Assembly: GCA_029550345.1 (NCBI GenBank)
Contig: JAKPHK010000038.1
Coordinates: 1 to 64,000 of the forward strand
Source: Pseudomonadota bacterium
GTDB lineage: Bacteria > Pseudomonadota > Alphaproteobacteria > Sphingomonadales > Sphingomonadaceae
DNA: 64,000 nt
Direction: 5' to 3'
The translations under genes and the position numbers were made by a program. This document shows, piece after piece, positions 11,200 through 60,502 of the stretch (position 1 is its first letter; each line of letters opens with the position of its first letter). Below the pieces are notes generated by a model that had not been told where the DNA came from, did not search any database, and worked only from the letters and a program-made list of their open reading frames with translations.

Positions 11200-11219
11200 T
11201 CTCCCCGGCTGACGGCGGG

Positions 11220-11254: not shown

Positions 11255-11255
11255 T

Positions 11256-12323: not shown

Positions 12324-12360
12324 TCGAGTTTTGCTCCGGAATTCGGCGATTGACCGCTAT

Positions 12361-12392
12361 TTGCGTTATCCTGTAAGCCAAATTCTACGCAT
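12361..12392. promoter_or_regulatory. Inverted repeat site 3 (TTGCGT-N20-ACGCAT), putative operator
   Basis: It lies in the 85-bp gap between the OYE gene (-) and the SDR at 12409 (+), ending 16 bp before the SDR start codon, so a bound protein would probably block transcription. Confidence 0.7.
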
Positions 12393-12408
12393 ATCAAGGA
12401 GAGGCGGG

Positions 12409-27674: not shown

Positions 27675-27706
27675 TTGCGGATTTCAAACAGTATTTAGTT
27701 ACGCAA
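27675..27706. promoter_or_regulatory. Inverted repeat site 6 (TTGCGG-N20-ACGCAA), putative operator
   Basis: It lies 59 bp upstream of the SDR at 27616 (-) and overlaps the stop codon of the next gene upstream (27695). The constant 20-bp spacing is kept. Confidence 0.65.
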
Positions 27707-28456
27707 ATTGCGACGGTTCGGGCAAAACGCTTGGGCTTCGCGTGAAAGACGGCCTGAGGCAGTGTATTGCCCGGTCGGGATCACGTCGATGGTCCCGCGC
27801 TCGATGAAGCGGTCGCAGCTTTCCATCATGCGATCAAGGTTGGCCTTGAACCTGGCCGGATCACCGACGGCGTCGAAGAAGGCGAAGGGATCGGTCAGGG
27901 CTGCCTCGGCAAAGCACTCCTCAACGATGGCCGCATAGGGCGGCGCATTGTCGGTGAGCGGGCGAACGACAAGGTTCTGGACATATTCGAAGTTTGCCTG
28001 GGTCTCGATCGCCACCTGGGTATGGCGATCCTGCCAGAGTGCAAGCCATTCACCGTGCGAAAGGCGCTCGGGCAGCGTCAGGAAGGCCAATTGGGCCCAG
28101 CCGGCCGTGCGCTGGCCAGGCTTGGCCGGATGCGCTGTGTTGGCGATGATGGTTGATTCCGCCACGATCCAGCCGTGCCAATAGTCAGCGGCGGCCGAGA
28201 GGGCTGCGTCGATCCCACCGCGCAGCAGGCGGTTGGCCGATGGTAGCCAGAATTGCACCACGGCATCATGCTGCCGGGCACCGCGCGACTGGCGCAGGTG
28301 CGCGCCGGCTGCGCTGATCGCGTCCTCCAGATTGAGCCGGATATTGCTGGCTCCTGCGGCGGCCAAGGCTCCTGGCAGCCGCGCGAGGAGCCGGGCATTG
28401 AACGCGGCCCGGTCAGTACCGTCCGCAGACCAGAGCAGGGCGATGACCTTTTCCAT
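27695..28456 (-). CDS. EthD-like dimeric alpha-beta barrel protein, uncertain
   Basis: 253 residues if started at ATG 28456 (MEKVIALLWSADGTDRAAF), just after the upstream SDR stop; the track start 28492 overlaps that SDR. The opening pattern (KVIALLW...DRAAFNARLLARLP) and the repeated second half (LSHGEWLALWQDRHTQVAIETQ) look like two EthD/ferredoxin-like domains, as in small EthD family proteins often found with degradation genes. No catalytic residues can be named. It forms a two-gene unit with the SDR at 28464. Function not recognised. Confidence 0.6.
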   Translation of the reverse strand: MEKVIALLWSADGTDRAAFNARLLARLPGALAAAGASNIRLNLEDAISAAGAHLRQSRGARQHDAVVQFWLPSANRLLRGGIDAALSAAADYWHGWIVAESTIIANTAHPAKPGQRTAGWAQLAFLTLPERLSHGEWLALWQDRHTQVAIETQANFEYVQNLVVRPLTDNAPPYAAIVEECFAEAALTDPFAFFDAVGDPARFKANLDRMMESCDRFIERGTIDVIPTGQYTASGRLSREAQAFCPNRRNLRN

Positions 28457-28463
28457 CCGCCGG

Positions 28464-29225
28464 TCAGTCGAAATTGGCCTGCCCGCCATCAAGCGGGATC
28501 GTTGCGCCGGTCAGGTAGGCCATGTCCGATAAACATAATGCCGCGACAGCGCGGCCGATATCCTCTTCCAGCTTGCCGATCCGGCCGAGCGGGATCGTGC
28601 GGAAGAAGGCCTCGGCCTCTTCCGGATTGTTGGCGATCCACCATTTCAGGCCCGGGCTTTCGGCATGGGGCGCGATAGTGAGGACGCGAATGCCCTGCCG
28701 ACCCCATTCTGCTGCTGCCGCGCGGGTCAGTACCCGGGTTGCCTGCTTGACCGCGCCATAGGCGCCATAGCCGGTCATGTCCCAGCGGATCCCAGCCGAG
28801 GAGGCGAGGTTGACGATAACCCCGCCGCCCCGCGTCACCATGTGCGGGTGGGCCAGTTTCATAAGCCGGAAGCTGGCCAGCGGCCCGGATTCAAATCCAG
28901 CCAGGAAAGCCTCGTCGCTGACGTCCAGCAGTTTGCCGTTCGGCACTTCCTGGGCATTGTTCACCAGGATATCGAGCCCGCCGAAGTGCGCGACGGTCTG
29001 CGCCACCATGTTGGCCAGGCTGGCGGCATCCTTGACGTTTCCGGCAATCGCCATGGCACCGCCGCCGCGCTCGGCAATCAGGCCGCAGGACGTCTCCAGC
29101 TTGGCCAGGGTCCTGCCGGTTACCGCCACTTTTGCGCCGGCCGCTGCCAGCGCCAGGGCGATTCCCTGTCCGACCCCTTGCCCGGCACCCGTTACCAGTG
29201 CCACCTTGCCGGAAAGATCGGTCAT
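28464..29225 (-). CDS. Short-chain dehydrogenase/reductase
   Basis: 253 residues. TGAGQGVGQGIALAL cofactor motif with TGRT after beta-2 (NADP-type Arg), NNAQ in place of NNAG, NLASSAGI and YGAVK catalytic residues, C-terminal LTGATIPLDGGQANFD. The unusual TGYGAYGAVKQATR and HAESPGLKWWIANNPEEAEAFF segments form the substrate loop. It is divergent from the SDR-KstD operon at 29365, sharing operator site 7, and is followed by the EthD-like gene. Likely a hydroxysteroid or hydroxyacyl dehydrogenase; substrate unknown. Confidence 0.83.
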   Translation of the reverse strand: MTDLSGKVALVTGAGQGVGQGIALALAAAGAKVAVTGRTLAKLETSCGLIAERGGGAMAIAGNVKDAASLANMVAQTVAHFGGLDILVNNAQEVPNGKLLDVSDEAFLAGFESGPLASFRLMKLAHPHMVTRGGGVIVNLASSAGIRWDMTGYGAYGAVKQATRVLTRAAAAEWGRQGIRVLTIAPHAESPGLKWWIANNPEEAEAFFRTIPLGRIGKLEEDIGRAVAALCLSDMAYLTGATIPLDGGQANFD

Positions 29226-30155: not shown

Positions 30156-31850
30156 ATGAGCGCCAGCTGGGACAAGGAAGTCGACGTTCTGGTCGTCGGT
30201 TCGGGCGCGGGCGGAATGCTGTCCGCGCTGGTCGCGGCGAAGAATCACGCCGACGTGCTGATTGTCGAGAAGGAAAAGCTGTGGGGCGGCACTTCTGCCA
30301 CCTCCGGCGCGGGGATCTGGATTCCGGCCAGCGACCAGGCCGCCGCGGCCGGCTTTCACGACAATGTCGACGATGCGTTCAAATATGTCCGCGCGCTATC
30401 CGCTGACAACGTGCCGGACGAGAACATCCGCGCCTATGTCGAGAATGCGTCGAAGATGCTGCGCTGGATGAGCAGCAACACCGAAATCGAATACCACGCC
30501 TTCCCCTATCCCGATTATCATGCCGAGAACCCCGGCGGTTCGCCGACCGGATACCGCACCCACATGCCGCTGCCGCTCGACGGCAAGCAGCTGGGCGACG
30601 ATGTCCGCACGCTGCGCTTTGCCTCTCCGGCGGCATCGCTGTTCGGCTATCTCAACTGGCACTTCGACGAGACCTACATCCTGCTGTTCCGGGCCAAAGG
30701 CTGGTGGTGGCATCTGGCCAAGAGCCTGATGCGCTACTGGCTGGACTGGCCGTTCCGCTTCACTTCGCGCAAGGATCGTCGCCTGACGCTGGGCAATGCC
30801 CTGGCGGGCGGGCTGCGGCTGGCGCTGAACAAGGCGAAAGTCCCGTTGTGGCTGGACAGCGGCCTGGAGGAACTGGTCAGCGAGAACGGCAGGGTTGTGG
30901 GCGCGGTGGTGCGCCGTGACGGCAAGGCCATGCGGATCAGGGCGCGCAAGGGCGTGATTCTGGCGGCAGGGGGCTTCGACAAGAACCAGGCGATGCGCGA
31001 TGTCCACGCGCCGCTCTATCCCAACGCGCTCTATTCCGGCGGGACCAGCGGCAACACCGGCGATGCGATCCGCGCCGGGCAGACTCTGGGCGCGGATACC
31101 ATGAACCTGCAATCGACCTGGGCCGCGCCGGTGTTCTACGTACCGGGCGAGGACCGCGGCCGGCTCTGCACGATCGAGCGGGCGCTCCCCGGCAGCCTGA
31201 TGGTCAACCAGCAGGGCGAACGCTATCTCAACGAAGCGGCCTCCTATCACATCACCGGCCAGCAGATGGCCCGCCGCCAGCGCGAACATGGCGATGCCAG
31301 CCCCAGCTGGTTCGTGTTCGATCACACCTATCGCCACAGCTACCCGGTCGGCCCGGTCTATCCGCTGGTGCCGGACTGGCTGCAGAACGGCATGGTCAAG
31401 ACGATCCTGAAGAAGGGGCGGACCATTGCCGAACTGGCTGAACAGATGGGTGTCGATCCGGCCCGGCTGGAAGCCACCATCGCCCGCTTCAACGCCAACG
31501 CCGAAAAGGGGGAAGACCCCGATTTTCACCGCGGCGAAGCGGCCTATGACAAGATGTATGGCGATCCGCGCGTCGCGCCCAACCCCTGCCTGCGCCCACT
31601 CACCAAGGGCCCGTTCTATGCCATGCCGATTTACCCCGGCGATATCGGCACCAATGGCGGGCTAAAGACCGATGCCCTGGCCCGCGTACTCGATGCCAAG
31701 GGCAAGCCGGTTGCCGGGCTTTATGCCATCGGCAACAGCGCGGCCTCGGCCATGGGTGAGAGCTATCCCGGCGCAGGCGTGACCATCGGTCCCGCGCTGA
31801 CGTTTGGCTATATCGCGGCGAACGACCTGACCGGGGCCAACGCAGAATAG
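30156..31850 (+). CDS. FAD-dependent 3-ketosteroid dehydrogenase-like flavoprotein (KstD family)
   Basis: 564 residues, length as for KstD. N-terminal FAD motif DVLVVGSGAGGMLSALVAAK, EKLWGGTSATSGAGIWIP as in KstD/fumarate-reductase flavoproteins, ILAAGGFDKNQAMR, and C-terminal GPFYAMPIYPGDIGTNGGLKTD, which carries the Tyr and the GTxGG signature of 3-ketosteroid dehydrogenases, then SYPGAGVTIGPALTFGYIAAND. Known role: delta1- (or delta4-) dehydrogenation of 3-ketosteroids using FAD. Odd: a Trp-rich amphipathic stretch KGWWWHLAKSLMRYWLDWPF near residues 188-207, suggesting membrane contact. Second gene of the operon starting at 29365. Confidence 0.85.
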   Translation: MSASWDKEVDVLVVGSGAGGMLSALVAAKNHADVLIVEKEKLWGGTSATSGAGIWIPASDQAAAAGFHDNVDDAFKYVRALSADNVPDENIRAYVENASKMLRWMSSNTEIEYHAFPYPDYHAENPGGSPTGYRTHMPLPLDGKQLGDDVRTLRFASPAASLFGYLNWHFDETYILLFRAKGWWWHLAKSLMRYWLDWPFRFTSRKDRRLTLGNALAGGLRLALNKAKVPLWLDSGLEELVSENGRVVGAVVRRDGKAMRIRARKGVILAAGGFDKNQAMRDVHAPLYPNALYSGGTSGNTGDAIRAGQTLGADTMNLQSTWAAPVFYVPGEDRGRLCTIERALPGSLMVNQQGERYLNEAASYHITGQQMARRQREHGDASPSWFVFDHTYRHSYPVGPVYPLVPDWLQNGMVKTILKKGRTIAELAEQMGVDPARLEATIARFNANAEKGEDPDFHRGEAAYDKMYGDPRVAPNPCLRPLTKGPFYAMPIYPGDIGTNGGLKTDALARVLDAKGKPVAGLYAIGNSAASAMGESYPGAGVTIGPALTFGYIAANDLTGANAE

Positions 31851-31851
31851 G

Positions 31852-32316
31852 TCACGCGGTCAAGGGATTGCTTCGCTCATCAATCCTGGCAAGCGTAACC
31901 GCGAAACCCAAGCGGGCACTCGAGTTGAGCGTTATTTCCTGATAGCGCTCAAACATCCCCTGAAGATGCTTGTCGATTTCCTCTTGAGTGTAATCAAGGG
32001 CATTGACGCTTGCAAAACCTTCCGCCTGCGCCATTCGGGCTGCGACTTCGCAATCGTCCACGCCGAAGAACACGCTCATGATGCCCTCGCCCTTGTGAGC
32101 AAGGAATTGAGAAACGGCGCTGTCATCTTCTCTGCCGGGCCTCGGTGCGCAGAGCTCGATTCCCGCATCCCAAGCAATCGATACGTTTATCCCGAATGGC
32201 TCACCAGTCCAGTGGGCGTCAACAAAGGTCGCGCCGAGCAGTGCACTGTATTCTCGCTTGGACTTCTCAAGATCGTGCACTGCAATCATCACACGATTCA
32301 CCCCTCTCAACCCCAT
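31852..32316 (-). CDS. VOC family (glyoxalase/dioxygenase superfamily) small protein
   Basis: 154 residues, SD GGGAGGCG. Single VOC-domain pattern: VNRVMIAVHDLEKSKREYSALLGATFVD at the N-terminus, GINVSIAWDAGIELCAPRPG, MSVFFGVDDCEVAARMAQAEG. Metal-ligand positions are not clear, so it may be a binding protein rather than an enzyme. Base composition and codon use look less GC-biased than in the neighbours, which hints at separate acquisition. It is convergent with the KstD-like gene with a single base between the stops, and 58 nt downstream of the SnoaL-like gene on the same strand. Confidence 0.7.
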   Translation of the reverse strand: MGLRGVNRVMIAVHDLEKSKREYSALLGATFVDAHWTGEPFGINVSIAWDAGIELCAPRPGREDDSAVSQFLAHKGEGIMSVFFGVDDCEVAARMAQAEGFASVNALDYTQEEIDKHLQGMFERYQEITLNSSARLGFAVTLARIDERSNPLTA

Positions 32317-32374: not shown

Positions 32375-33037
32375 CTAATCCGCCCGCACCTTCACCTTCG
32401 GCGCGGCGGCACCCCGGCGCATCGCGTTGAGGAAACCTTCTAGCGGTGCAGGCTCGGCCACCGGGCCGCCGTGGTCCCCTTCGCGCGCCCAGAATTCGGC
32501 ATAGCTCGGGAACAGCTTGTGGAAGTTGCCTTCCGCCCGGTCAGTGCCGGGCCAGCGCATCTTGTTCTCGCCCACCGGCGGCTTGTTGAGATCGGTCGCG
32601 TACCAGTAAAGCGGCAGGCGCCGGGCAAAGTACCAGCGCCCGTCTTGGCGGATGTAATCGTCGACATACATCATCTGCATGATCACCCATTCGTCCGCGC
32701 CGCCCGGCACCGGGGTTTCGTGCTCGTTCTTGGAATAGACCACACCGTGGGCATGATCGGGATCGTCGAATTCGATCACGTGGCCGCCGATGTGGTGCGA
32801 TGTGCCGGTAAAGGGCGAACGCAGCGTGTGGTCCATATAGGCCCGCAGCGCCTGGCGGCCGCTGGCATCCTTGCCGACCCGGACATCGGCCGGAAACAGC
32901 GAGACCATCGCGTCCATATCGCGCATGTCGAGCGCCAGGGCATATTTGGCCGGGAGCTGGCGGATCGCGTCGAGGGATTCCAGGCGGTCGATGCGGGCTT
33001 CAAGGTCAGTCATGGTCATGGCTCTCGTCGTAATCAT
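32375..33037 (-). CDS. SnoaL-like domain protein, possible steroid dehydratase
   Basis: 220 residues if started at ATG 33037, which overlaps the P450 stop (ATGA); ATG 33019 or 33013 are alternatives. SnoaL_4 pattern: LESLDAIRQLPAKYALALDMRDMDAMVSLF at the start, TSHHIGGHVIEFDDPDHAHGVVYSKNEHE, MMYVDDYIRQDGRWYFARRLPLYWYATD, and a longer tail with FPSYAEFWAREG. The helix with Y and the DMRDMD motif match small lyases/isomerases such as Hsh2-type dehydratases. It follows the P450 gene directly, so it may act on the hydroxylated product. Function is inferred. Confidence 0.72.
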   Translation of the reverse strand: MITTRAMTMTDLEARIDRLESLDAIRQLPAKYALALDMRDMDAMVSLFPADVRVGKDASGRQALRAYMDHTLRSPFTGTSHHIGGHVIEFDDPDHAHGVVYSKNEHETPVPGGADEWVIMQMMYVDDYIRQDGRWYFARRLPLYWYATDLNKPPVGENKMRWPGTDRAEGNFHKLFPSYAEFWAREGDHGGPVAEPAPLEGFLNAMRRGAAAPKVKVRAD

Positions 33038-34278
33038 TGCATCGTTACCCGCACCGGCAGGCGCTTCAGTCCGCCGGTGTGGTTGGTCTTGACCCATTCG
33101 GGCTCGCCAGCAAGCTCGATCGTCGCGACGCGCGCGGCAATCTCGGCAAACAGGGCCTCCAGCTCCATCTCGGCCAGGATCCGGCCAAGACAGTGGTGCG
33201 CGCCATAGCCGAAGCCAAGGTGGCGGTTGGGGCTGCGGTCGATCCGGAAGGCGTCGGGCTCGTCAAAGGCGCGCTCGTCGCGGTTGCCGGACAGATAGAG
33301 GATGGCCACCTGCTCTCCCGCCGCGATAGGCTGACCGGCCAGCTCGGTATCGACGGCAGCGGTGCGCATGAAGTGGCGTACCGGGGTGGCCCAGCGGAAA
33401 ATCTCCTGCGCAGCCGGAGCAATCAGGGCGGGATCGGCCTTGAGCTTGGCCAACTCTGCGGGATTGCGGGCCAATTGCATCAGGCCAACCCCGACACTGG
33501 AGCTGGTCGTGTCATGTCCGGCCGCCGCCAGCAGCATGCCGTAGGACAGCGAATCCATGTCGGACAGCGGTTCGCCGTCGATCAAGGCGGTCGCGATCAC
33601 CGACATCAGGTCATCCTGCGGATCCTGGCGCCGCTCCTGCACCACGCCCCCCAGGTAGCCGAAGAACTCCATCGCAGTCGCCAGCCCGAAATCGCCGTTG
33701 GCATTGCGATCGGGATCGCTGGCTCCGAACAGCTCCTGGGTAAGGCGCAGCACCAGCGGCGCATCGCTTTCGGGCAGGCCGAGGATCGAGGTGATCATGA
33801 TCAGCGGATAGGGCACCGCGATTTCCTCGACGAAGTCGAACTCGCCCTGCGGTGCAAGCCGTTCGATCTTGTCGACATATTCGCGGGCCAGCAGCCGCAT
33901 CCGTTCACGCAGAGTGCCCAGGAACTTTGAATTGAACCATGACTGGGTCAGTTGGCGGTGCTTGCGATGATCAGGCTCGTCCAAGTCGAGCAGAGTCCGC
34001 ACCGGCCCGGTCCTGCTGCCGAACTGGGCGATGGTGCGATCCTCGAACCAGGCAGGCAACAGGGTCAGGCGCGGGGCATTGAGCCAGACCTTGGTGTTGC
34101 GCTCCACCTCCATGATGTCCTGGTGGCGCAGCACGGCCCAGAACGGGCGATAGGGCTCCTGCTCGATCCACAGGATGTCGCCCTGGGCACGCATGGCAGC
34201 GAACTTGGCGGCAATCCCGGCCTCGTCGGCATAGACTTCGGGAGAGAAGGCATCGATATCGGTGGTTGGCCTGATCAC
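33034..34278 (-). CDS. Cytochrome P450 (CYP125/142-like)
   Basis: 414 residues. Class I bacterial P450: I-helix AAGHDTTS (about 252-259), EIFR as the ExxR motif (292-295), heme-binding HLGFGYGAHHCLGRILAEME with Cys363. The LGFGYGAHHCLG signature and overall spacing resemble actinobacterial steroid P450s of the CYP125/CYP142 type. Possible roles: side-chain terminal hydroxylation, or A-ring hydroxylation as by the estradiol 4-hydroxylase EdcA of Novosphingobium tardaugens. Neither can be chosen from sequence. No ferredoxin or ferredoxin reductase lies beside it. It is flanked with 4-nt overlaps by the DUF1254 gene and the SnoaL-like gene. Confidence 0.9.
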   Translation of the reverse strand: MIRPTTDIDAFSPEVYADEAGIAAKFAAMRAQGDILWIEQEPYRPFWAVLRHQDIMEVERNTKVWLNAPRLTLLPAWFEDRTIAQFGSRTGPVRTLLDLDEPDHRKHRQLTQSWFNSKFLGTLRERMRLLAREYVDKIERLAPQGEFDFVEEIAVPYPLIMITSILGLPESDAPLVLRLTQELFGASDPDRNANGDFGLATAMEFFGYLGGVVQERRQDPQDDLMSVIATALIDGEPLSDMDSLSYGMLLAAAGHDTTSSSVGVGLMQLARNPAELAKLKADPALIAPAAQEIFRWATPVRHFMRTAAVDTELAGQPIAAGEQVAILYLSGNRDERAFDEPDAFRIDRSPNRHLGFGYGAHHCLGRILAEMELEALFAEIAARVATIELAGEPEWVKTNHTGGLKRLPVRVTMQ

Positions 34279-35618
34279 GGCTCGATCCTTTCGATCGGGG
34301 GCAGGGCATAGCGCCCGTCAAGCGCCTCGGCGCGCGGCAGGTAGAGCCGCAGCACGACATGGAACGCGCCGGCCGGTACCGGCAACCAGTTCGAGGACCC
34401 TGCTGGCGGCTTTGCGTCGGACAGATAGAGTGACAGCGATCCGTCCCGAGCCTGGCGCAGGCCGGGCGTGCGATCGCCAATGTTGTAGCGCTTCAACGGG
34501 TTGGCCACGAGCTGCGAGGTGGTGCGATCATAAGCGGTCAGCGACCAGAAGGCGGCGACCGAGGGCAGCTGTCCCTTGGCAAAGCGAATGCGATAGAGCC
34601 GCTTACCGTCGAGCATTTCGCCGCGATTATCGGTGATTGCAGCGGGATAGATCGATTCCTCGGGTGCGTTGACATAGCCGCCGCGCGCCACTTCGGCGCG
34701 GAGCAGGAAGTCGTTGCCCGGATCGGCCATGGCCCCAGACCACATCCAGCCGTTCTGGATACGGGATGGACGAAATCCGCGCTGAGCCAGGACTTTCGGC
34801 CCCAGTCGCACCGCGCAGCCCAGCCCCAGCGCTTCGGCGGGCCTGAGTTTTGCCGGGTCGAACTGCCGACCCGGACCGAACCCGGCCTGGTCGAACTGCG
34901 CCATCAGGGCGGCTTCGCCCGGCTTGGCCGGAACCATGCGCAAGGCTCGATTGAGCAGTTCGAAGTAATGCAGGCTGTCGAAGGGTTGCAGCTGGGCGGC
35001 GGCAGTCACTGGCTCACCCGCTGTGCCGGTCATCCGGATCGCGGCAGCCAGCGCCTTTGCCTTGACCAGGTCGGCATTGTCGGTCGCCAGGACACGGCCC
35101 AACATCCAGACCGTATCGGTCGAAAGGGGGAAGGCCTCGTACCCCGCCGGAACATTCCCCCCGGATGGACCGATCAGCGCGTACCGCCGCGCAGAACCGC
35201 CATTGGTCCTGGTGCCCAGGTGCTGGGGGCGGCCGTAAAGGTCCATGAAGGCCAAAGTGTAATAGCGCGCGCCGAACGCCGGGACATCGACCAGCACCGG
35301 TCCCTTCGAGAGATCGAGCCAGGCATTGAGATAGAGCGTATCGGCATTGGCAGCGCGTAGCTGCCCCTGCGTTTCCGGGGTCAGCAGATGCGGATAGGTC
35401 GCGATAGTGTTGACTGGCGCGGTAACCGGCTGGTCCGGGCTGATGCGGTGCGTTTCGTTGTGCCGCTGCTTGAGCAGATCGACCAATGGATAGCCGTAGA
35501 TGAACCCCTGCAGCCCGTTGGCATAGGCCAGGGCAGCTTCCGGATCCTGCGCGATCGAGCGGCACTGCCCGTCATCGGGGAGGCTGCCCGCCGCCAGGGC
35601 GAGTGCAATCGTTAGCAT
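34275..35618 (-). CDS. DUF1254/DUF1214 domain secreted protein
   Basis: 447 residues with a short signal-like N-terminus (MLTIALALAAGSLPDD). The DUF1254 part contains FIYGYPLVDLLKQRHNE and ANADTLYLNAWLDLSKGPVLVDVP followed by YYTLAFMDLYGRPQHLGTRTNG. The DUF1214 part contains KGQLPSVAAFWSLTAYDRTTSQLV, LKRYNIGDRTPGL and a closing GSSNWLPVPAGAFHVVLRLYLP. Such proteins have no established enzymatic role that I know of. The 4-nt overlap with the P450 gene suggests a linked function, such as periplasmic binding or processing of the P450 substrate. It is divergent from TonB receptor 2 across operator site 8. Confidence 0.82.
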   Translation of the reverse strand: MLTIALALAAGSLPDDGQCRSIAQDPEAALAYANGLQGFIYGYPLVDLLKQRHNETHRISPDQPVTAPVNTIATYPHLLTPETQGQLRAANADTLYLNAWLDLSKGPVLVDVPAFGARYYTLAFMDLYGRPQHLGTRTNGGSARRYALIGPSGGNVPAGYEAFPLSTDTVWMLGRVLATDNADLVKAKALAAAIRMTGTAGEPVTAAAQLQPFDSLHYFELLNRALRMVPAKPGEAALMAQFDQAGFGPGRQFDPAKLRPAEALGLGCAVRLGPKVLAQRGFRPSRIQNGWMWSGAMADPGNDFLLRAEVARGGYVNAPEESIYPAAITDNRGEMLDGKRLYRIRFAKGQLPSVAAFWSLTAYDRTTSQLVANPLKRYNIGDRTPGLRQARDGSLSLYLSDAKPPAGSSNWLPVPAGAFHVVLRLYLPRAEALDGRYALPPIERIEP

Positions 35619-35690
35619 ACCTCTCCAATCGCGTAGATGTACTCCACAAACGCTACGATATCGCGTTTATGATTGCGCCTCAAGCAATGA

Positions 35691-35722
35691 TCGCGTAATC
35701 ATGCCCATATTGAGCTACGCAG
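35691..35722. promoter_or_regulatory. Inverted repeat site 8 (TCGCGT-N20-ACGCAG), putative operator
   Basis: In the divergent region between the DUF1254 gene (start 35618, -) and TonB receptor 2 (start 35770, +), ending 47 bp before the receptor start. A degenerate second copy may lie at 35629-35660 (TCGCGT-N20-ACGATA). Confidence 0.6.
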
Positions 35723-35769
35723 AAGCTTGCCGCCCACGACGGCAGGGCTGCGTCAAGAGAGGGATCGAA

Positions 35770-38085
35770 ATGCGCCTGTTGAGCACCGTTTCGCTGGTCG
35801 CCCTGACGACCTTAGCTGCCGCCCCCGCGTTTGCGCAGGATGCCGCGCAGAATCAGGACGATGGGATCGGCGATATCGTCGTCACCGCGCAGAAGCGCTC
35901 GGAAAACGTCCAGGACGTGCCGATCGCGATCTCGGCGTTGGGTAGCCAGTTCCTCGAAAGCCGGGGGATCGATTCGATCGACAAGCTGGGTGCGGTTGCC
36001 CCGAACGTGAAGATTGAACGTGCGCCCGCTTCCAAGACCATCTCGCAGATCTCGATCCGCGGCTCGGTCACGATCAATCCGGCGATCACCTGGGAGCCGG
36101 CGGTCGGGCTGTATCTTGACGGGGTCTATATCGCCAAGGCGCAGGGCTCGATCTTCGACGTAGCCGATCTTGAGCGGGTCGAACTGCTGCGCGGACCGCA
36201 GGGCACGCTCTATGGCCGCAATGCTCTGGCCGGCGCGGTCAACCTCGTCACCCGCAAGCCCAGCGGTGAGGCCGGCGGATCGATCGATCTGACCTATGGC
36301 AGCTTCAATGATCGGCGCGTGCGCGGCGTGCTCGACCTGCCCAAGTTCGGTCCCTTTTCGGTCAAGGTTGCCGGGCAGTACCGCAAGCGCGACGGGCTGA
36401 TCGATCTGGTGCCCAATTCGCCTTCCGGCGCGGACCGCGCGGATTCGATCGATTCCGGCAGTTTCATGGTCCAGCTCCGCGCCGAACTGTCGGACGCGAT
36501 TACCGCCGACTATACCTATGACTATAGCAAGGCGAGCCAGGATCCGCCGTTCTCGCAGCTGCTGCGCGTCAACCGCAACGGCGATCCGCGCGATATCTTC
36601 GACCCGGCTTCGCCCGGCTATGCCTTTGGCGGGGCGTTCTTCCCGCTCAACCTCTACACCAACCCGAACCGGGTTGAGACGGCGGCGATCAATGCCCCGG
36701 CCTATGAGCGTTCGCGCAGCTATGGCCACGCCTTGACGCTCACCGCCGATCTTGGCGCTGCCACGCTCAAGTCGATCACCGCCTATCGCGATCTGGCCTG
36801 GGCGGATGGCCTCGATCTGGATGGCTCGCCGCTGCCGGTCGCCTTTACCCAGCGCATCACGGACTATCATGCCTTCAGCCAGGAACTGCAACTGACCGGA
36901 GAGCTGGGTGATGGCCGCCTGAACTACGTGCTGGGTGCCTTCTATTTTGACGAGAAGGCCGAGACACTGAACCCGCAGACCTATTTCGGCGGCGGGGTTG
37001 ATCTGCAATCGGACTATGGCTCGAACACGAAGGCTTTGGCGCTCTATGCCCAGCTTGATTACAAGTTCACCGATGCCCTGAAGGTCAGCCTGGGCGGCCG
37101 CTATACGCACGAGAAGAAGGACGTGCGGCGCTTCTTCCGGGTCAACTTCGATGCCGGCAGCGGGATCTTCTCGCCGCTGGTCGTTGCCAACCTGCCTTAC
37201 GGCGCGATCCCGGAAGCGAAGTACAACAACTTCTCGCCCGCCGCGACCCTGGCCTGGGAAGCAAGCGACAACATCAATGTCTATGCCCGCTTCGCCCAGG
37301 GCTTCAAGTCGGGCGGCTTCAACGGCGAAACCAATGTCTTCGCCGCGCCGACTGCCGGTTGTCCGAGTGGCGCGACCGAGCTGTGCAGTCCCTATCGTCC
37401 GGAAAAGGTCGACAGCTACGAAGTGGGGATCAAGACCAAGCTGGCCGATGGCCGGGTGATTTTCAATTTCGCCGCCTTCCGCGACGAGCACAAGGACATG
37501 CAGCTTTCGGTCTTCACCGCCACAACCGGTGCGGCATCGATCATCCGCAATGCTGCCGGGGCCCGCATCCAGGGGCTGGAATTCGAAACGGTGCTGCGCC
37601 CGGTCGATGGCCTGACGATCAATGGCTCGCTCGCGATCCTCGATCCGAAGTACAAGAGCTTCATCGATGGCGGCGTGGATGTATCGAACAACCGCGCCTT
37701 CCCGCACGCGCCCAAGACCACGGCCTCGGTCGGCTTCGACTGGGCCGTGCTGAGCGGGGACTGGGGCAAGCTGAACCTCTACGGCGATCTCAACTACGTC
37801 TCGAAGTACTATACTTTTCCCTATCCGCTGCTGACGCCGACCCGTTCGGACCAGAATGCCAACTCCAGCCAGTCAAAGGGGCGCACGATCGTCAACCTGC
37901 GGGCCAGCCTGTCTGACATCCCGCTGGGCGGAGTCAAGGCCGAGATCTCGGGCTTTGTCCGCAACCTGACCAAGGAAACCGATCCGTCGAACTTCATCGA
38001 CTTCGGCCCTGGTTTCGGCGGGATCCTGCTTGGTTACTTCCCTGAACCGCGCACCTTCGGGGTAACAGTCGGCGTCAAGTTCTGA
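35770..38085 (+). CDS. TonB-dependent outer-membrane receptor 2
   Basis: 771 residues from ATG 35770 (preceded by GAGAGGGATCGAA); the track start 35701 lies within the operator. Signal peptide MRLLSTVSLVALTTLAAAPA cleaved after AFAQ. Plug: GIGDIVVTAQKRSENVQDVP, VELLRGPQGTLYGRNALAGAV. Barrel ends RTFGVTVGVKF. About 90 residues shorter than receptor 1 and clearly different in the extracellular loops, so the two may take different ligands. It is followed after 13 nt by a SnoaL-like gene and an SDR, which argues for a steroid or its derivative as cargo. Confidence 0.93.
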   Translation: MRLLSTVSLVALTTLAAAPAFAQDAAQNQDDGIGDIVVTAQKRSENVQDVPIAISALGSQFLESRGIDSIDKLGAVAPNVKIERAPASKTISQISIRGSVTINPAITWEPAVGLYLDGVYIAKAQGSIFDVADLERVELLRGPQGTLYGRNALAGAVNLVTRKPSGEAGGSIDLTYGSFNDRRVRGVLDLPKFGPFSVKVAGQYRKRDGLIDLVPNSPSGADRADSIDSGSFMVQLRAELSDAITADYTYDYSKASQDPPFSQLLRVNRNGDPRDIFDPASPGYAFGGAFFPLNLYTNPNRVETAAINAPAYERSRSYGHALTLTADLGAATLKSITAYRDLAWADGLDLDGSPLPVAFTQRITDYHAFSQELQLTGELGDGRLNYVLGAFYFDEKAETLNPQTYFGGGVDLQSDYGSNTKALALYAQLDYKFTDALKVSLGGRYTHEKKDVRRFFRVNFDAGSGIFSPLVVANLPYGAIPEAKYNNFSPAATLAWEASDNINVYARFAQGFKSGGFNGETNVFAAPTAGCPSGATELCSPYRPEKVDSYEVGIKTKLADGRVIFNFAAFRDEHKDMQLSVFTATTGAASIIRNAAGARIQGLEFETVLRPVDGLTINGSLAILDPKYKSFIDGGVDVSNNRAFPHAPKTTASVGFDWAVLSGDWGKLNLYGDLNYVSKYYTFPYPLLTPTRSDQNANSSQSKGRTIVNLRASLSDIPLGGVKAEISGFVRNLTKETDPSNFIDFGPGFGGILLGYFPEPRTFGVTVGVKF

Positions 38086-38098
38086 ACCGGCCGCCAGC

Positions 38099-38593
38099 AT
38101 GACGCTGGAAGAGCGACTGCTGCGCCTTGAGGATGACCGGGCCATCCGGGATCTCAAGGCGCGCTATCTGCGGGCCTGCGATACCAAGGACCCGGCAACG
38201 GTTCGCGATTGCCTGCTGCCGGATGGGGCCGTCATTGCCTATGACGGCTTCCCGCCTTTTGCCGATCGCGAAGCCTTCGTAGCGATCTATGCCGAGATGG
38301 GCTGCGCACCCGGGACCTTCGACATTCACCACGGCGCCAACGGGGTGATCACCTTCGATGGCGATAGCTGCGCGGCGGGGCAATGGTCGCTGTTGTTCCA
38401 CAACATCAACCTGGCAAACCGCACGCTGACGCAGATGGGCGTCGAATACGACGACGTCTACGTGAAGCAGAGCGGGCGCTGGTGGATCGCGGAAACACGG
38501 TCGCGGCGGCTTTCATGCCTGATCCACAGCGTGGACGGGGAAGGGCGGCCCACGGTGACCGTCATGGGCGAAGCGCCCGCAACATTCGGCTGA
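38099..38593 (+). CDS. SnoaL-like protein, possible steroid dehydratase or isomerase
   Basis: 164 residues, 13 nt after the TonB receptor. Pattern: LEERLLRLEDDRAIRDLKARYLRACDTKDP (N-terminal helix with R-Y and D), then YAEMGCAPGTFDIHHGANGVITFDGDSCAAG, VEYDDVYVKQSGRWWIAETRSRR. This is the SnoaL_4 fold shared with 32375 and 39338. The D/H residues (DIHHGAN) in the cavity are in the region used for catalysis in such lyases. Possible role: water elimination from a hydroxysteroid; not proven. Followed by an SDR. Confidence 0.72.
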   Translation: MTLEERLLRLEDDRAIRDLKARYLRACDTKDPATVRDCLLPDGAVIAYDGFPPFADREAFVAIYAEMGCAPGTFDIHHGANGVITFDGDSCAAGQWSLLFHNINLANRTLTQMGVEYDDVYVKQSGRWWIAETRSRRLSCLIHSVDGEGRPTVTVMGEAPATFG

Positions 38594-39790: not shown

Positions 39791-41255
39791 AGGCCGCCTT
39801 GCGTCCGGCCTGGCGGCCAAAGAAGGTGCAGTCGGCCAGGCTCATCCCCGATGAATAGCCGTGCCCCCAGGCAGGAAGGCCCGATGTGCAGCGCCCCGCG
39901 GCGAACAGGCCGGGGATTGCCGCACCGCCGCGATCGAGCACTTCGCCATCGGGAGAGGTTTTCAGCCCGCCCAGGGTGAAGAAGCTGAAATAGCTGTCGT
40001 GGAAATCCAGTTCGAGCGCGATGAACGGTCCCTGATCCAGGGGCGTCAGGATCGGCGGGCGCTTGTCGAACAGCGGATCGCGACCTTTGCGGGCATGTTC
40101 GTTGTAGACCGCCATGGTCGCGCTGAGCGTGCCCTGCGGCAGTTCCAGTTCGGCCTCGACCTCTTCCCAGGTCTCGCCGGTCCCGGCGATGCGCATCCGG
40201 GCGAAATCCATCGGCTGGACGAAATGGGCATTGTCGAGCAGCAGGTAAACCTTGCCATCAGGCTGGTCGACCGCGCAGCGGCTGACGCGCCCATGATAGC
40301 AGTCTTCGTTGATGAAGCGTTGGCCCTTGGTGTTGACGAACACGCCGTAGGCATGGCTTTCCGGCATGGTCCAGGGGCAGGTGGTGAAGAACTGGTCCAT
40401 GTGGATTGCATCGCCGCCCGCACCCAGGCCCAGCTCGATGCCTGAGCCATCGTCCTTGTCGCCGATCGGATCGTTCAGCTTGAAGGTGTCGGGGCAGTAC
40501 TTACGCCGCATGGCCTCGTTGAAGACGAAGCCGCCCGTGGCCAGGACCACACCTTTCTCCGCCTTCACGAAGCGCGGCTGGTTGTCGATCCGCACGACCA
40601 GGCCGACGATCCGGTCGCCGTCGCGCACCAGCGCCAGGGCCCGGGCATCGGTGATGACCTCAATCCCTTTGGCGCGAGCGCTGGTTTCGAGCACATCGAC
40701 CAGCGGACGCCCGCCGCCCCAGCCCATGTGCTGGATCACATGGCCGCGCGGAGCGGGTTTGGCGAGATCGCAAAATGGCGCCGCCGCCTCGCTACCCGAC
40801 CAGATCAGGGTCGAATCGTCGGTCGGTTCGATAAGCTTTCCGGGCAGGTAATTGCCGCGGTAGGGCACGCCCTGGGCCTTGAGCCAGGCGTAGTGGTTCA
40901 GCGCCTCGCGGCCGTAACTCTCGCACTTGGCCTCATCGACGCAAGGTCCGCCGGCCAGCTTGAGATAGGCGATGAAGTCTTCGGTTGAATCCGCGAAGCC
41001 CGCCGCGCGCTGGGTATCGGTACCGCCGCCGCCGCCGATGTAGATCTCGCCGCCCGAGAGGCCCGATGCGCCGCCGCTGCCCGAATTGCGTTCGAACAGC
41101 ATGACGCGCGAACCCGCATCGGCCGCCTCGATCGCGGCGCAGGCCCCGGTCGCGCCAAAGCCGATGATGGCAACGTCAGTCTCGAAGTCCCAGGCCGCAA
41201 CCTCGCTGGCGGGGTAAGGGCGGTGCAGCGAAATCTCAGCCATGCTCTCAGTCAC
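39783..41255 (-). CDS. FAD-dependent flavoprotein of the KstD/fumarate-reductase group
   Basis: 490 residues (486 if started at the second ATG, 41243). FAD motif [60 protein letters not shown], and C-terminal [26 protein letters not shown]. The segment equivalent to PFYA...GTxGG of ketosteroid dehydrogenases reads GPFIALELD...SFFTLGGL, so the conserved Tyr is missing. It is therefore probably a dehydrogenase or reductase for a different enoyl or keto substrate. Its start overlaps the end of hsaF by 8 nt. Confidence 0.8.
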
Positions 41256-42285
41256 CCTTGGCCTTCACCATATCCAGCGCAACATCGACGATCATGTCCT
41301 CCTGCCCGCCGACCATCTTGCGGCGGCCGAGTTCGAGCAGGATTTCGCGGGTATCGATCCCATAGGTTTTGCTGGCCTTTTCGGCGTGGCGCAGGAAGCT
41401 GGAATAGACCCCGGCATAGCCCAGGCTCAAGGTTTCGCGATCGACCCGCACCGGGCGGTCCTGCAGCGGGCGGACCAGGTCCTCGGCCGCGTCCATCAGC
41501 AGGCTGACATCACAGCCGTGGTTCCAGCCCTTGCGGTCAGCTGCAGCCACGAAGACTTCAAGCGGGGCATTGCCAGCGCCCGCGCCCATGCCGGTCAGGC
41601 TGGCGTCGATCCGCACCGCGCCGCACTGGGCCGCGACAATCGAATTGGCGACACCAAGCGAAAGGTTGTGGTGCGCGTGCATGCCGCGCTGGGTTTCGGG
41701 CTTCAGCACCCGGTCATAAGCCTCGAACCGGGCGCGCACGCCGTCCATGTCAAGCGCGCCGCCGCTGTCGGTGACATAGACGCAGTGTGCGCCATAGCTT
41801 TCCATCAGCAGGGCCTGCTGTGCGAGCAGCTCCGGTTCAATCATGTGGCTCATCATCAGAAAGCCAGAGACATCCATGCCCAGGTCGCGGGCGATGCCAA
41901 TGTGCTGCTTGCTGACATCCGCCTCGGTGCAGTGAGTCGCGACGCGGACCGAGCGGACGCCAATGTCATAGGCGCGGCGCAGTTCCTCGACCGTGCCGAC
42001 GCCGGGCAGGATCAGCGTGGTAAGCACGCATTTGTCGAGCACGTCGGCCACGGCCTCCAGCCATTCCCAATCGGTATGGGCACCGAAGCCATAGTTGAAG
42101 CTTGCGCCCGAGAGGCCGTCGCCATGCGCCACCTCGATCGCATCGACCCCCGATGCCTCGATCGCCGCGGCAATCGCGCGGACGTGGTCGATCCCGTACA
42201 TGTGGCGCACGGCGTGCATGCCATCGCGCAGGGTAACGTCCTGGACATAGAGCTTGTCACCTGCTTCGACGTTGAACGTGCTCAT
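41248..42285 (-). CDS. hsaF: 4-hydroxy-2-oxoacid aldolase (HsaF/BphI/MhpE)
   Basis: 345 residues, the size of BphI. TIM-barrel DmpG family: [16 protein letters not shown] (catalytic Arg-Asp), [22 protein letters not shown], and [15 protein letters not shown] with the metal-binding HxH pair. Known role: Mn-dependent retro-aldol cleavage of 4-hydroxy-2-oxohexanoate to pyruvate and propanal, with the aldehyde channelled to HsaG. Overlaps hsaG by 4 nt as expected for subunits of one bifunctional complex. Part of the hsaA2 operon. Confidence 0.92.
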
Positions 42286-43229
42286 TGTGCCACCCCCCCC
42301 TGCTTCATTCGGCGCGCTGCCAGCAGTTCGCCGGTGGCCTTGGCTGCAGCGGTCATGATGTCGAGGTTGCCGGAATAGCTCGGCAGGTAATCGCCCGCGC
42401 CTTCTACCTCGAGCATGATCATCGACTTGATGCCGGTGAATTCGCCCATTCCGGGGATCTTCAGCTTGTTGTTGTCGCCGAAGCGCTCGAACTGCACTTC
42501 CTGCTTGAGTCGGTAGCCGGGAACATATTTCTGCACTTCGGCAACCATTTCTTCGACCGAGCGGCGGATCGCATCCTCGCTGCCGCCTTCGGACAGGGTG
42601 AAGACCGTGTCGCGCATGATCATCGGCGGTTCGGCCGGGTTAAGGATGATGATCGCCTTGCCCTTGGTGGCGCCACCGACGACTTCGATCGCCCGCGCCG
42701 TGGTGCGGGTGAATTCGTCGATGTTGGCGCGGGTGCCGGGGCCGGCTGAGCGAGACGAGACCGAAGCAACGATCTCGGCATAGTGCAGCTTGTCGGAGAC
42801 GCGGGCGACGGCGGCCACCATCGGGATCGTCGCCTGGCCGCCGCAGGTCACCATGTTGACGTTCGGCTGATCGAGATGCTGGCTCATGTTGACCGGCGGC
42901 ACGGTGAAGGGGCCGATCGCGGCCGGGGTCAGGTCAACCACCTGGATGCCGTCGGCGCGCAGCGCCTCGTCGTGGCCCTTGTGGGCATAGGCGCTGGTCG
43001 CATCGAAGGCGATGCCGATTTCCGGATAACAAGGCAGCTTCTTCAGGCCTTCAATCCCCTCGTGCGTGGTGGCGATGCCATGCTCGCGCGCCATCGCCAG
43101 CCCTTCGCTGTTCGGGTCAATCCCGACAACTGCCGCCAATTCCATGTTCTGGGGATACTTGATCATCTTCATCATCAGGTCGGTGCCGATATTGCCCGAG
43201 CCGATGATTGCGGCCTTCACGCGTGCCAT
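42282..43229 (-). CDS. hsaG: Acylating acetaldehyde/propanal dehydrogenase (HsaG/BphJ/MhpF)
   Basis: 315 residues from ATG 43229 ([29 protein letters not shown]), not the track's 43268. NAD-binding GSGNIGTDL, the [11 protein letters not shown] segment, and the catalytic Cys in [14 protein letters not shown]. Known role: oxidises propanal made by HsaF to propionyl-CoA with NAD+ and CoA. Completes the HsaE-F-G trio for the C6 side product of ring A. Downstream of hsaE with a 10-nt gap, upstream of hsaF with overlap. Confidence 0.92.
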
Positions 43230-43239
43230 TGCTGCTTCC

Positions 43240-44022
43240 TTAGACAAACCGTGCCGTGCAGGTGCCAATACCGTGCAGGGTCATTTCGAAGACGTCGCCT
43301 TTCACTGCCGGCTCCAGCGGAACCAGGCTGCCGGACAGGATCACGTCTCCACCATTGAGCGTCACGCCATAGGCGCCCAGCGTGTTGGCCAGCCAGGCTA
43401 CGGCCTGGGCCGGATCACCCTGGACCGCGCGGCCATAACCTTCGGACAGCGGCGCACCGTTCTTGGTGACCGTGACATGCAGGGCCGGCAGGTCATGGTC
43501 GCGGGGATCGACCTTGGCCTCGCCCAGGACGAAAACTCCGCATGAGGCGTTGTCGGCCACCGTATCGACAATCCCGATCTTCCAGTCGCGGATCCGGCTG
43601 TCGACGATCTCGAAGCAGGGGGTGATATAGTCGGTGGCCGCTACGACATCGGCGGCGGTGATGCCGGGCCCATTGAGGCTGTCCTTGAGCACGAAGGCAA
43701 TCTCGGCCTCGGCGCGCGGGGCGATCAGGGCCTTGGCATCGATGTCGATTTCTTCGCCGGTACGCATCCAGTCGGTCAGGAAGCCAAAGTCAGGTTGGTG
43801 CACGCCCAGCATGTCCTGCACTGCCTTGCTGGTGACGCCGATCTTCTTGCCGACCACCCGCTCGCCATCCTGGCGGCGGCGGGCGAGGAAGCCGAGCGAG
43901 ATGGCATAGGCATCGTTGATGGTCAGGTCGGGATAGCGCTCGATCAGCGGGCTGACCACGTGGCGGCCGCGCAGCGCGTCGTAAAGTTCGCCAGCCAGGC
44001 GGTCATTGCGGTTGTCGGTCAC
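43240..44022 (-). CDS. hsaE: 2-hydroxyhexa-2,4-dienoate hydratase (HsaE/BphH/MhpD)
   Basis: 260 residues from GTG 44022, overlapping the hsaB stop (GTGA); the track start 44139 would add a low-quality leader. FAA-hydrolase/MhpD fold: [27 protein letters not shown], metal site [46 protein letters not shown]. Known role: adds water to 2-hydroxyhexa-2,4-dienoate released by HsaD, yielding 4-hydroxy-2-oxohexanoate for HsaF. Position between hsaB and hsaG fits. Confidence 0.9.
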
Positions 44023-44513
44023 AGGTAGGCTCCGTCCTGGTAGATCAGGGGCGTCACCGCATCGCTGACCGTGGCGCGCAGGACGCGGGCGATGACGATC
44101 GAATGCGTGCCATAGGCCAGCATGGCATCGATCACGCAACCGAGGTTGGCCTGGGCTCCGACGAGCTCAGGCACGCCATCCGGGCCTTCGCGCCATTCCC
44201 CGATCCGGAAGCGCTCATCCTGCGGAACGCCGCCGCCGAAAGCCGCCGAAACATCCTGCTGGTCGCGAGCGAGCAGGTTGACTGACAAGGGGGCGGTCGG
44301 CACCAGCAAGCCATGCAGGGCGGTCGCGCGGTTGACGCAGACCAGCACGGCAGGTGGATCGATCGTCAGCGAAGTCACCGAAGTTGCGGCCATGCCGACT
44401 GGGCCGTTCTCACCACGCGCTGCCACGACAGCCACCGAGGCTGCGAGCCGCCGCATCGCCGCGCGGAATTGCGCCGGCAATTCCTCCGGGATCAGCGGAT
44501 AGCCGTCAGCCAC
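44019..44513 (-). CDS. hsaB: Flavin reductase, HsaB-like
   Basis: 164 residues. Flavin-reductase-like domain: FRAAMRRLAASVAVVAARGENGPVGMAATSVTSLTIDPPAVLVCVN with the typical G-x-T-(A/V)-(S/T)-S region, LSVNLLARDQQDVSAAF and CVIDAMLAYGTHSIVIARV. Known role: NADH-dependent FMN reductase that supplies reduced flavin to HsaA. It is the only such gene in the window, so it may serve both HsaA1 (7764) and HsaA2 (45335). Overlaps hsaD by 8 nt and hsaE by 4 nt. Confidence 0.88.
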   Translation of the reverse strand: MADGYPLIPEELPAQFRAAMRRLAASVAVVAARGENGPVGMAATSVTSLTIDPPAVLVCVNRATALHGLLVPTAPLSVNLLARDQQDVSAAFGGGVPQDERFRIGEWREGPDGVPELVGAQANLGCVIDAMLAYGTHSIVIARVLRATVSDAVTPLIYQDGAYL

Positions 44514-45324
44514 GCAGAAATTCCAGGCTGTAGCGGTTGAACTCTTCGGCCCGTTCGACCTGAACCCAGTGGCCGGTGCGGGTGAAGGTCATGCAGCGGG
44601 CATCGTCACAGCGATCGAGGAAATGGCGCGCGCCGCTTTCGGGGCAGAACTCGTCATTCAGGCCCCACAGTACGAAAATTGGCACCTTCAGCTCGCCCAC
44701 CAATGGCCCGAGGTTGGGCGTGCGCATGCGCATCAGCACGTCCTTTGGCTGGGTCCGGGCCACGGCAAACCGCTCCTCGACCAGGGCATCCGGAATTTGT
44801 GCGGCGAAATCGGGATGAACCAGATTGCTGATCAGGCGGCGCTGCTCATCCAGATTGAAGTCCGGCCCGCCGAAGTTGGAGACCATCTTGGTGATGCCCG
44901 GCATCTTGAAGTAGTCGGCCTGCTCCTCGATGCAGCCGGGCGCCATCAGGATCAGCCGCTCGGTGAACTCCGGATGGTCCAGCGTCAGATGAATCGCCAC
45001 CCCGCCGCCCAGCGAATTGCCAACCAGCACCGCTCGCTCGATGCCGTGCGCCCGCAGCGCCTGGTACAAGGTGTCGGTGAACAGCTGGAGGGTGTAGTCG
45101 ATCCCCTCAGGCTTCGAAGAGGCGCCATAGCCGATCAGGTCGGGCAGGATGACCTGGTAGCCGGCCTCGACAAAGGCCGGCCAGTTCTGCCGAAAGTTCG
45201 AAGCCCCCGATGCACCGGGGCCGCTGCCGTGGACAAAGACCACGACCGGGCCTTCGCCCGCCGACTTGAGGTGGATCCGGTAGCCGCCATCGACCTCGTA
45301 GGTTGCTTCCGCCAAGCCAGTCAT
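44506..45324 (-). CDS. hsaD: Meta-cleavage product hydrolase (HsaD/BphD-like)
   Basis: 272 residues. Alpha/beta hydrolase: oxyanion motif VFVHGSGPGASGASNF, nucleophile S104 in VGNSLGGGVAIHL, acid in LWGLNDEFCP, His in GHWVQVERAEEFNR. The HGSGPGASG motif is typical of BphD/HsaD carbon-carbon hydrolases. Known role: cleaves the ring-A meta-cleavage product into a 2-hydroxydienoate and the propanoate-bearing C/D-ring acid (HIP-type). Between hsaA2 and hsaB in the operon. Confidence 0.92.
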   Translation of the reverse strand: MTGLAEATYEVDGGYRIHLKSAGEGPVVVFVHGSGPGASGASNFRQNWPAFVEAGYQVILPDLIGYGASSKPEGIDYTLQLFTDTLYQALRAHGIERAVLVGNSLGGGVAIHLTLDHPEFTERLILMAPGCIEEQADYFKMPGITKMVSNFGGPDFNLDEQRRLISNLVHPDFAAQIPDALVEERFAVARTQPKDVLMRMRTPNLGPLVGELKVPIFVLWGLNDEFCPESGARHFLDRCDDARCMTFTRTGHWVQVERAEEFNRYSLEFLRG

Positions 45325-45334
45325 GCCGCGCTCC

Positions 45335-46549
45335 TTACAGGAAAGGGTTCAGCGGGGCCTGGCCCAGCATGGCGTTGACAGCATCGCTGGTGCGGTTGCC
45401 AGGATCGTTGGCAACGTGCGCGCGGCCGGCATGAAGATCGAGCCAGGGCTGAATGATGTCGCTGCTGGTATAGATCGCGCGGCCGCCGAACAGCTGCACC
45501 ACATCGTCGATCAGGCCGGCCAGCCGGCGCACGACAGTTGCCGACTGATAGGTATAGAACGCCCGCTTTTCCATCGGGATGTCCTCGCCGCGCTCGGCGT
45601 AGCCCATCAGATCTTCGAAGGTCAGGCGCAACGTGATTTCCATTTCGCGCTTTTCAGCCACGGCCCGGGCAATTGCGGCATGGAGGATCGGATCGTCCTT
45701 CGATGCCTTGCCGGTATTGGTCGAAACGCGGCTCTGCATGATCGCCATGGCCGCATTGATCGCGGCCTGAGCCCCGCCGAATGCTGCTGTCGAAACCGAA
45801 CGGACGAAAACCTGAGCCCAGGGCAGCCGGTAAAGCGGGCCGGTGTTCACTTCCTGCCCCGGATTCTTGCAGAGGAACCCGTCGATCGAGCGGTGGGTGC
45901 GGTAATCGGGCACGAAAACGTCATCGACAATGATGTCATGGCTGCCAGTGCCCTGGAGGCCGAACACGTGCCAGGCGTCTTCATCGATCGCGTAGTCGCT
46001 GCGCGGGAGCAGGAAGGTCCGCATCTCGGCCGGGGTGCCATCGTCCTTGGGCGGGCAGAACGCGCCCAGCAGGACCCAGCCGCAGTGACTCGATCCGGTC
46101 GAGAAGCCCCAGCGGCCAGACAGGCGGAACCCGCCTTCGACGTGCGTGACCTTGCCGACCGGCTGATAGGTAGACGAAACCAGCATGTCCGGGTTGCCGC
46201 CCCAGACTTCTTCCTGGGCCTTGTCGTGGAACAGCGCCAGCTCATAGGGGTGGCAACCGACGACGCCATACATCCAGCCGGTCGACATGCAGCCTTCTGC
46301 CAGCGCCTTCTGGACTTCGAAGAACACGTTGGGGTGCATTTCATAACCGCCCCAGCGCTTGGGCTGGACGATCTTGAAAAAGCCCGCCGCTTGCATCTCG
46401 GCAATGGTCTCGGCCGGGACGTTCCGGTTGCGCACACAATCGCGTGCGCGCTCCTTTAGAACGGGGATCATCGCGCGGGCACGGCTGATCAATTCTTCGC
46501 TGGTCGGCACCGAGCCTGAATGCTCGGCCTGCAGGGCTGCGGTGGCCAT
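45335..46549 (-). CDS. hsaA: Flavin-dependent seco-steroid phenol monooxygenase, HsaA-like, copy 2
   Basis: 404 residues, first gene of the minus-strand hsa operon. Acyl-CoA-dehydrogenase fold as in HsaA1: AGFFKIVQPKRWGGYEMHP, LAEGCMSTGWMYGVVGCHPYELALF, LSGRWGFSTGSSHCGWVLLGAF, FGLQGTGSHDIIVDDVFVPDYRTHRS. Because hsaB, hsaD and hsaE-G follow directly, this is the canonical ring-A monooxygenase copy, whereas HsaA1 sits with hsaC1 and Rieske genes. The two may handle seco-steroids that differ in substituents (inference). Confidence 0.9.
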   Translation of the reverse strand: MATAALQAEHSGSVPTSEELISRARAMIPVLKERARDCVRNRNVPAETIAEMQAAGFFKIVQPKRWGGYEMHPNVFFEVQKALAEGCMSTGWMYGVVGCHPYELALFHDKAQEEVWGGNPDMLVSSTYQPVGKVTHVEGGFRLSGRWGFSTGSSHCGWVLLGAFCPPKDDGTPAEMRTFLLPRSDYAIDEDAWHVFGLQGTGSHDIIVDDVFVPDYRTHRSIDGFLCKNPGQEVNTGPLYRLPWAQVFVRSVSTAAFGGAQAAINAAMAIMQSRVSTNTGKASKDDPILHAAIARAVAEKREMEITLRLTFEDLMGYAERGEDIPMEKRAFYTYQSATVVRRLAGLIDDVVQLFGGRAIYTSSDIIQPWLDLHAGRAHVANDPGNRTSDAVNAMLGQAPLNPFL

Positions 46550-46597
46550 CTCCCGGATTCCTTTTCCTTGCTTCGACTCAGCCCCTCTGAACGCGGG

Positions 46598-46629
46598 CTT
46601 CGTAAAATTTTCTAACGTTTGATACGCAA
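46598..46629. promoter_or_regulatory. Inverted repeat site 9 (CTTCGT-N20-ACGCAA), putative operator
   Basis: In the 179-bp divergent region between hsaA2 (start 46549, -) and the SDR/ipd operon (start 46729, +). The left half is degenerate, the right half is perfect and the spacing is exact. It would control the two largest operons of the locus. Confidence 0.6.
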
Positions 46630-46728
46630 ATCGTCAATTGAAAAGCCGTTTGACTTCCGATAATGCGGATTCAACACAGAGTTGGTGTCGCGATTCACTG
46701 AAGCGGACCATTTGGGAGAATTGCCGGC

Positions 46729-60500: not shown

Positions 60501-60502
60501 CC

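Follow-up and report, generated by a model that had tools for sequence, protein, structure and literature searches.

A DUF1254/DUF1214 protein in a sphingomonad steroid-degradation cluster has a TonB-dependent receptor and a SnoaL-type protein as more constant neighbours than the adjoining cytochrome P450

Introduction

The locus described here raises the question of whether a protein of unknown function encoded directly upstream of a cytochrome P450 is a partner of that P450 or belongs with other genes around it. The protein belongs to DUF1254/DUF1214, a widespread family with no known function for any of its solved members; one table of protein folds gives "VPA0735-like" a class to itself, among the folds seen in two DUF families (PMC2744874). 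In a literature search that took in few subscription papers, no link of DUF1254 to steroids or to a function was found. In the window, namely the whole stretch of 64,000 nucleotides analysed here, which comes from a Novosphingobium-like MAG, the gene for this protein (hereafter, DUF) precedes genes for a P450 and a SnoaL-like protein. The original prediction had read these three genes as a translationally coupled trio, in which the link to a CYP125-like P450 would point to a role of DUF in substrate handling.

Results

The trio in a steroid-degradation cluster

The trio itself was confirmed: DUF, P450 and SnoaL are encoded on the minus strand in this order, and all of their domains clear the Pfam cut-offs by wide margins. 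Both DUF domains are found in a single ORF of 447 residues (34275-35618), namely DUF1254 (PF06863; E-value 2.7e-32, 112.2 bits against a curated cut-off of 22.2) and DUF1214 (PF06742; 2.8e-34, 118.4 bits against 25), and the nearest orthologue, in Novosphingobium sp. UBA6722, is 97% identical. The P450 (33034-34278; 3.4e-25) is followed by a SnoaL_4 (NTF2-like) protein (32375-33013; 1.4e-21), which has 212 residues from the start common to its relatives (MTxLEARIDRL, at 33013) and alternative starts at 33019 and 33037.

A TonB-dependent receptor (35770-38085, plus strand) is transcribed divergently from DUF across a presumed promoter region (35619-35769), in which no sigma-70-like match was found, the scan for promoters and terminators having returned nothing. 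On the other side, an FAD enzyme related to 3-ketosteroid delta1-dehydrogenase (KstD; 30156-31850, plus strand) is convergent with the trio, and a glyoxalase-fold protein (31852-32316, minus strand), present in some relatives only, lies between SnoaL and KstD. HsaA/C/D/E/F/G-type ring-degradation genes (41248-48431) flank the trio, and the window also holds a KshA_C Rieske oxygenase (by Pfam), a DmpG/DmpF-type aldolase and dehydrogenase, and a CoA transferase. With KstD, HsaA, HsaC, HsaD and KshA-type Rieske genes occurring together, the trio sits within a sphingomonad 9,10-seco steroid-degradation cluster, where the NCBIfam models of KstD, HsaA, HsaC and HsaD are the best or near-best matches yet score below their equivalog cut-offs; the steroid context that had been predicted is thus borne out. 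Elsewhere in the window, a SnoaL_2 protein of 126 residues (60497-60877, plus strand) presumably resembles delta5-3-ketosteroid isomerase in size and setting. Also, an EthD-domain protein (27695-28492, minus strand; EthD 1.7e-7) conserved beside the trio may be a relative of Hsh3, since this 7beta-hydroxysteroid dehydratase of Sphingobium Chol11 has been described as an EthD-domain protein (PMC12175502).

The P450 has an intact heme motif (FGYGAHHCLG at 356, for FxxGxxxCxG), an ExxR motif (EIFR at 292) and an I-helix motif (AGHDTT at 253, for [AG]GxDT[TS]). Its nearest solved structures are CYP108D1 and CYP108A1, and global alignment gave identities of 41.1% and 40.4%, respectively, borderline at the 40% family limit. 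The predicted likeness to CYP125, which we took to require more than 40% identity to CYP125 with CYP125 nearest among P450s, was not upheld: the P450 shares 38% identity with a reconstructed CYP125 ancestor, CYP108 proteins rank higher, and native CYP125 chains rank far below. Judging from these alignments, we regard the P450 as CYP108-like, borderline by the family limit; its intact motifs are common to P450terp (CYP108A1) and CYP108D1 of Novosphingobium, but it differs from the CYP108 family in its placement in a steroid cluster.

The SnoaL protein shares its fold family, SnoaL_4, with the NTF2-like hydroxysteroid dehydratases BaiE and Hsh2, and its Tyr24, Asp29 and His74, which are invariant in 18 orthologues, align with Tyr30, Asp35 and His83 of BaiE in a weak match (E 0.0013). 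These residues of BaiE reportedly have a catalytic role, as described by Bhowmik and colleagues in 2016. The protein differs from BaiE and Hsh2, however, in its greater length and in a similarity of only E ~1e-3, and its AF2 model (pLDDT 44) was unusable. A second SnoaL_4 protein, encoded downstream of the TonB receptor (38099-38593, plus strand), is clearly closer to BaiE (E 2e-9) and is a candidate Hsh2-type 7alpha-hydroxysteroid dehydratase.

Neighbours of DUF in relatives

The locus was compared with 26 relatives, namely 25 contigs of the genome collection having a DUF orthologue (59-97% identity) and one further genome (G035), which were counted after repeat copies of the same genomes had been set aside; at least 58% identity was taken as the orthologue level in the neighbourhood counts. 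A divergent TonB receptor followed by DUF, P450 and SnoaL recurs in nine of the 26, one of which has a DUF3604 gene between P450 and SnoaL, and the order of the trio is hence conserved, as the original prediction would have it. In 11 relatives, DUF is followed by SnoaL with no P450; ten of these have the divergent TonB receptor, and one has DUF3604 replacing the P450. The P450 is upstream of DUF in three others that have neither TonB nor SnoaL there (L039, L050 and L042, the last with a GMC oxidoreductase between P450 and DUF), and DUF is located elsewhere in the remaining three, two of which have it adjoining a different, only distantly similar SnoaL_4-type gene. Counted by neighbour, the divergent TonB receptor accompanies 19 of the 26 DUF orthologues and SnoaL is in the same operon in 20, with KstD and Hsa genes around them, whereas 14 have no adjoining P450. 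One genome with DUF and no adjacent P450 is that of the cultured sphingomonad Chakrabartia godavariana (L057). The constant unit is the divergent TonB receptor, SnoaL and the convergent KstD, and these, rather than the P450, are the stronger constant partners of DUF.

The association of DUF with SnoaL and TonB holds down to about 61% DUF identity and in several bacterial families. SnoaL retains 91-96% identity across 18 orthologues, whereas DUF drops to about 60%. In a family screen of 401 genomes, furthermore, SnoaL was present in all 11 genomes with a DUF orthologue, compared with 43 of the 401 overall. Homologues of both KstD and HsaA were found in all of six genomes with an off-locus DUF orthologue, two of which are gammaproteobacterial MAGs, and this ties the DUF clade to steroid degraders. 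As the reading of the locus, we favour, tentatively and at somewhat less than an even chance, an accessory cassette for steroid uptake and early processing, in which DUF and P450 would share a pathway without being an obligate pair.

In keeping with this reading, several other genes were noticed within or next to the trio in relatives. The DUF3604 protein found between DUF or P450 and SnoaL (L037:9302-11203; L038, ~10540-12435) has a lipoprotein-like N-terminus, and its start overlaps the preceding gene by 4 bp. Predicted exported proteins come after SnoaL, namely PAP2 and a family of 522/537 residues with a hydrophobic N-terminus, which directly follows SnoaL (L043:11187-12755; L047:9928-11541) and of which the 522-residue copy has no Pfam family.

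Fold, N-terminus and paralogues of DUF

The AF2 model of DUF (pLDDT 85, from a 22-row alignment) matches VPA0106 and VPA0735 (Foldseek E 1e-28 to 3e-25) and, more loosely, 6ans; the Foldseek search gave no match to an enzyme or catalytic fold, only to proteins of unknown function. VPA0735 and VPA0106 (PDB 2p3y, 3vb9 and 3u07) have both domains and the same fold as DUF of the window, but they are Vibrio proteins with 16-23% identity to it.

DUF had been described as signal-bearing, which stands only in part: a short hydrophobic N-terminal segment (MLTIALALAAGSLP) is kept in most orthologues, but it is weak, with about 10-14 hydrophobic residues and usually no positive charge. Given this weak signal peptide, mostly without charge in the n-region, a cytosolic location is possible, and DUF might then be an enzyme with a steroid or acyl intermediate as its substrate, adjacent to the TonB gene only through a shared regulator. 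TonB receptors are abundant in sphingomonads, and the adjacency can, therefore, be regulatory. Many residues are invariant across the DUF orthologues, as would suit an enzyme, and of 63 paralogous DUF1254 loci in the same bacterial family, 17 have a thiolase gene and 21 an enoyl-CoA hydratase gene within two genes, a set that is largely one repeated neighbourhood. We nonetheless consider a cytosolic enzyme rather unlikely, in view of the persistence of the hydrophobic segment among orthologues, the more clearly signal-like N-termini of many DUF1254 paralogues, and the lack of a catalytic fold among the matches of the model.

The same 63 loci bear on the neighbours of DUF. TonB was found within two genes in 18 and P450 in none, counts that are approximate, as the models used to assign gene families had been built from proteins of the window; a comparison set of distant genes had 5 TonB among 212. 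A neighbouring TonB gene is, therefore, more typical of DUF1254 in general than a neighbouring P450. Across the family, a thiolase and enoyl-CoA hydratase pair also lies repeatedly divergent from a different DUF1254 paralogue (L093-L096, L132, L136-L138, L141, L143, L149, L151, L155, L162 and L163).

Separability of DUF and P450

The predicted overlap of DUF and P450 is present: the DUF stop TGA (34277-34275) and the GTG start of the P450 (34278) overlap by 4 bp as GTGA (34278-34275), and an A/GTGA overlap is kept in eight of the ten loci where the two genes co-occur in this order (the window and nine relatives). At the junction of P450 and SnoaL, an ATG at 33037 in the SnoaL reading frame overlaps the P450 stop (ATGA), but the start shared by relatives lies 24 nt later and would leave a gap of 20 nt. 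Such overlaps are common in operons. We rejected the 4-bp overlap as a sign of a special tie between DUF and P450, since equal overlaps join DUF to SnoaL in L047, L048 and L051 (with a similar one in L041) and to DUF3604 in L037; DUF is coupled to the next gene, whatever that gene is, and the overlap hence indicates an operon rather than a particular partner.

The P450 is indeed an optional member of the locus. Among SnoaL loci with no DUF orthologue, six have an empty slot between the divergent TonB and SnoaL (L107, L108, L109, L112, L114 and L121), and one (L106) has P450 and SnoaL beside TonB with DUF absent. In a tally of this slot, DUF alone was found in 11 loci, P450 alone in one and both in nine, and loci with neither also occur; because of the loci with neither and the P450-only locus, DUF and P450 are regarded as independent inserts in one slot. 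A P450 orthologue is present elsewhere in four DUF genomes (G052, G299, G330 and G391), and in eight examined genomes with a DUF orthologue (those of L035/G220, L037, L041, L044, L046, L047, L052 and L054) P450 matches are below 45% only. On the DUF tree, adjacency of P450 requires about six changes, and those P450s that follow DUF group in a single clade with a branching order that agrees with that tree. The history of the two genes thus appears to be co-inheritance with gain and loss.

Some functional tie between DUF and P450 is, all the same, favoured by the second arrangement with P450 upstream (L039, L050 and L042) and by the family screen, in which 8 genomes have the P450 orthologue and 7 of these have DUF as well (Fisher p 8e-12, a statistic that ignores relatedness and has a small effective sample because the genomes concerned come from only three or four genera). 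The P450 orthologue is also two genes from a 6ans-type protein in two other genomes, and Foldseek places 6ans near the DUF fold. In these genomes (L068:6921-10369 and L069:3692-7133), the P450 is accompanied by a small HTH-like regulator, a polyketide-cyclase-like protein and the 6ans-type protein; a DUF1214 domain was sought in the nearby protein of ~375 residues and rejected, with no Pfam match and an insignificant profile comparison, leaving only the structural link via 6ans.

An obligate pair was rejected, given the genomes with DUF and no P450, the locus L106 and the 63 paralogous loci in which no P450 was detected within two genes. The proposal that DUF handles substrates for the P450, or assists it in some other way, is supported only in part: the conserved order and the agreement of the trees within the clade speak for it, but the link is weakened by the 14 of 26 orthologues with no adjoining P450, by L106, by the paralogues and by the equal coupling of DUF to other genes. 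The probable compartments also differ, with DUF exported and the P450 cytosolic, and we consider this partnership improbable. Chance hitch-hiking of unrelated genes into a hot spot between TonB and SnoaL, as the variable contents of this slot (nothing, DUF, P450, DUF3604 or combinations) might suggest, is very improbable, given the persistence of the DUF-SnoaL-TonB association across bacterial families and the prediction of every off-locus orthologue genome checked as a steroid degrader.

Discussion

The accessory cassette that we tentatively favour would be an insertion with the divergent TonB-dependent receptor on one side and, on the other, the SnoaL-type enzyme, which is strongly conserved and adjoins KstD. 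The receptor would carry a steroid across the outer membrane, and DUF, probably exported, may bind or condition the steroid (or its ester or conjugate) in the periplasm. Where present, the cytosolic CYP108-like P450 would hydroxylate certain steroids and thereby widen the substrate range, and SnoaL may work in the manner of a hydroxysteroid dehydratase, ahead of delta1-dehydrogenation or at about that step, followed by KstD. A comparable locus is the edc estrogen cluster of Novosphingobium (Caenibius) tardaugens, where a TonB receptor and a P450 are likewise found in a sphingomonad steroid-degradation locus (PMC7793797); its TonB receptor, EdcT, has a part in the use of estradiol, and EdcA is an estrone 4-hydroxylase (PMC7793797). 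The edc cluster differs in that the text of PMC7793797 names, in those words, neither a SnoaL gene nor a gene of unknown function.

In conclusion, the comparison of gene neighbourhoods appears to connect DUF1254 more with the uptake and early processing of steroids than with the P450. The tie of this DUF1254/DUF1214 clade to steroid catabolism is a new link, for which we infer the mechanism outlined above. As a broader and doubtful extension, DUF1254/DUF1214 might be a periplasmic binding or processing family for hydrophobic substrates loaded by TonB receptors, of which this clade would be specific to steroids. To our knowledge, the passage of steroids through the Gram-negative periplasm is poorly understood, and with the clade placed in steroid catabolism beside a TonB receptor, its function becomes directly testable. 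If the reading of periplasmic binding or processing is true, it would provide the first function for a fold without known activity.
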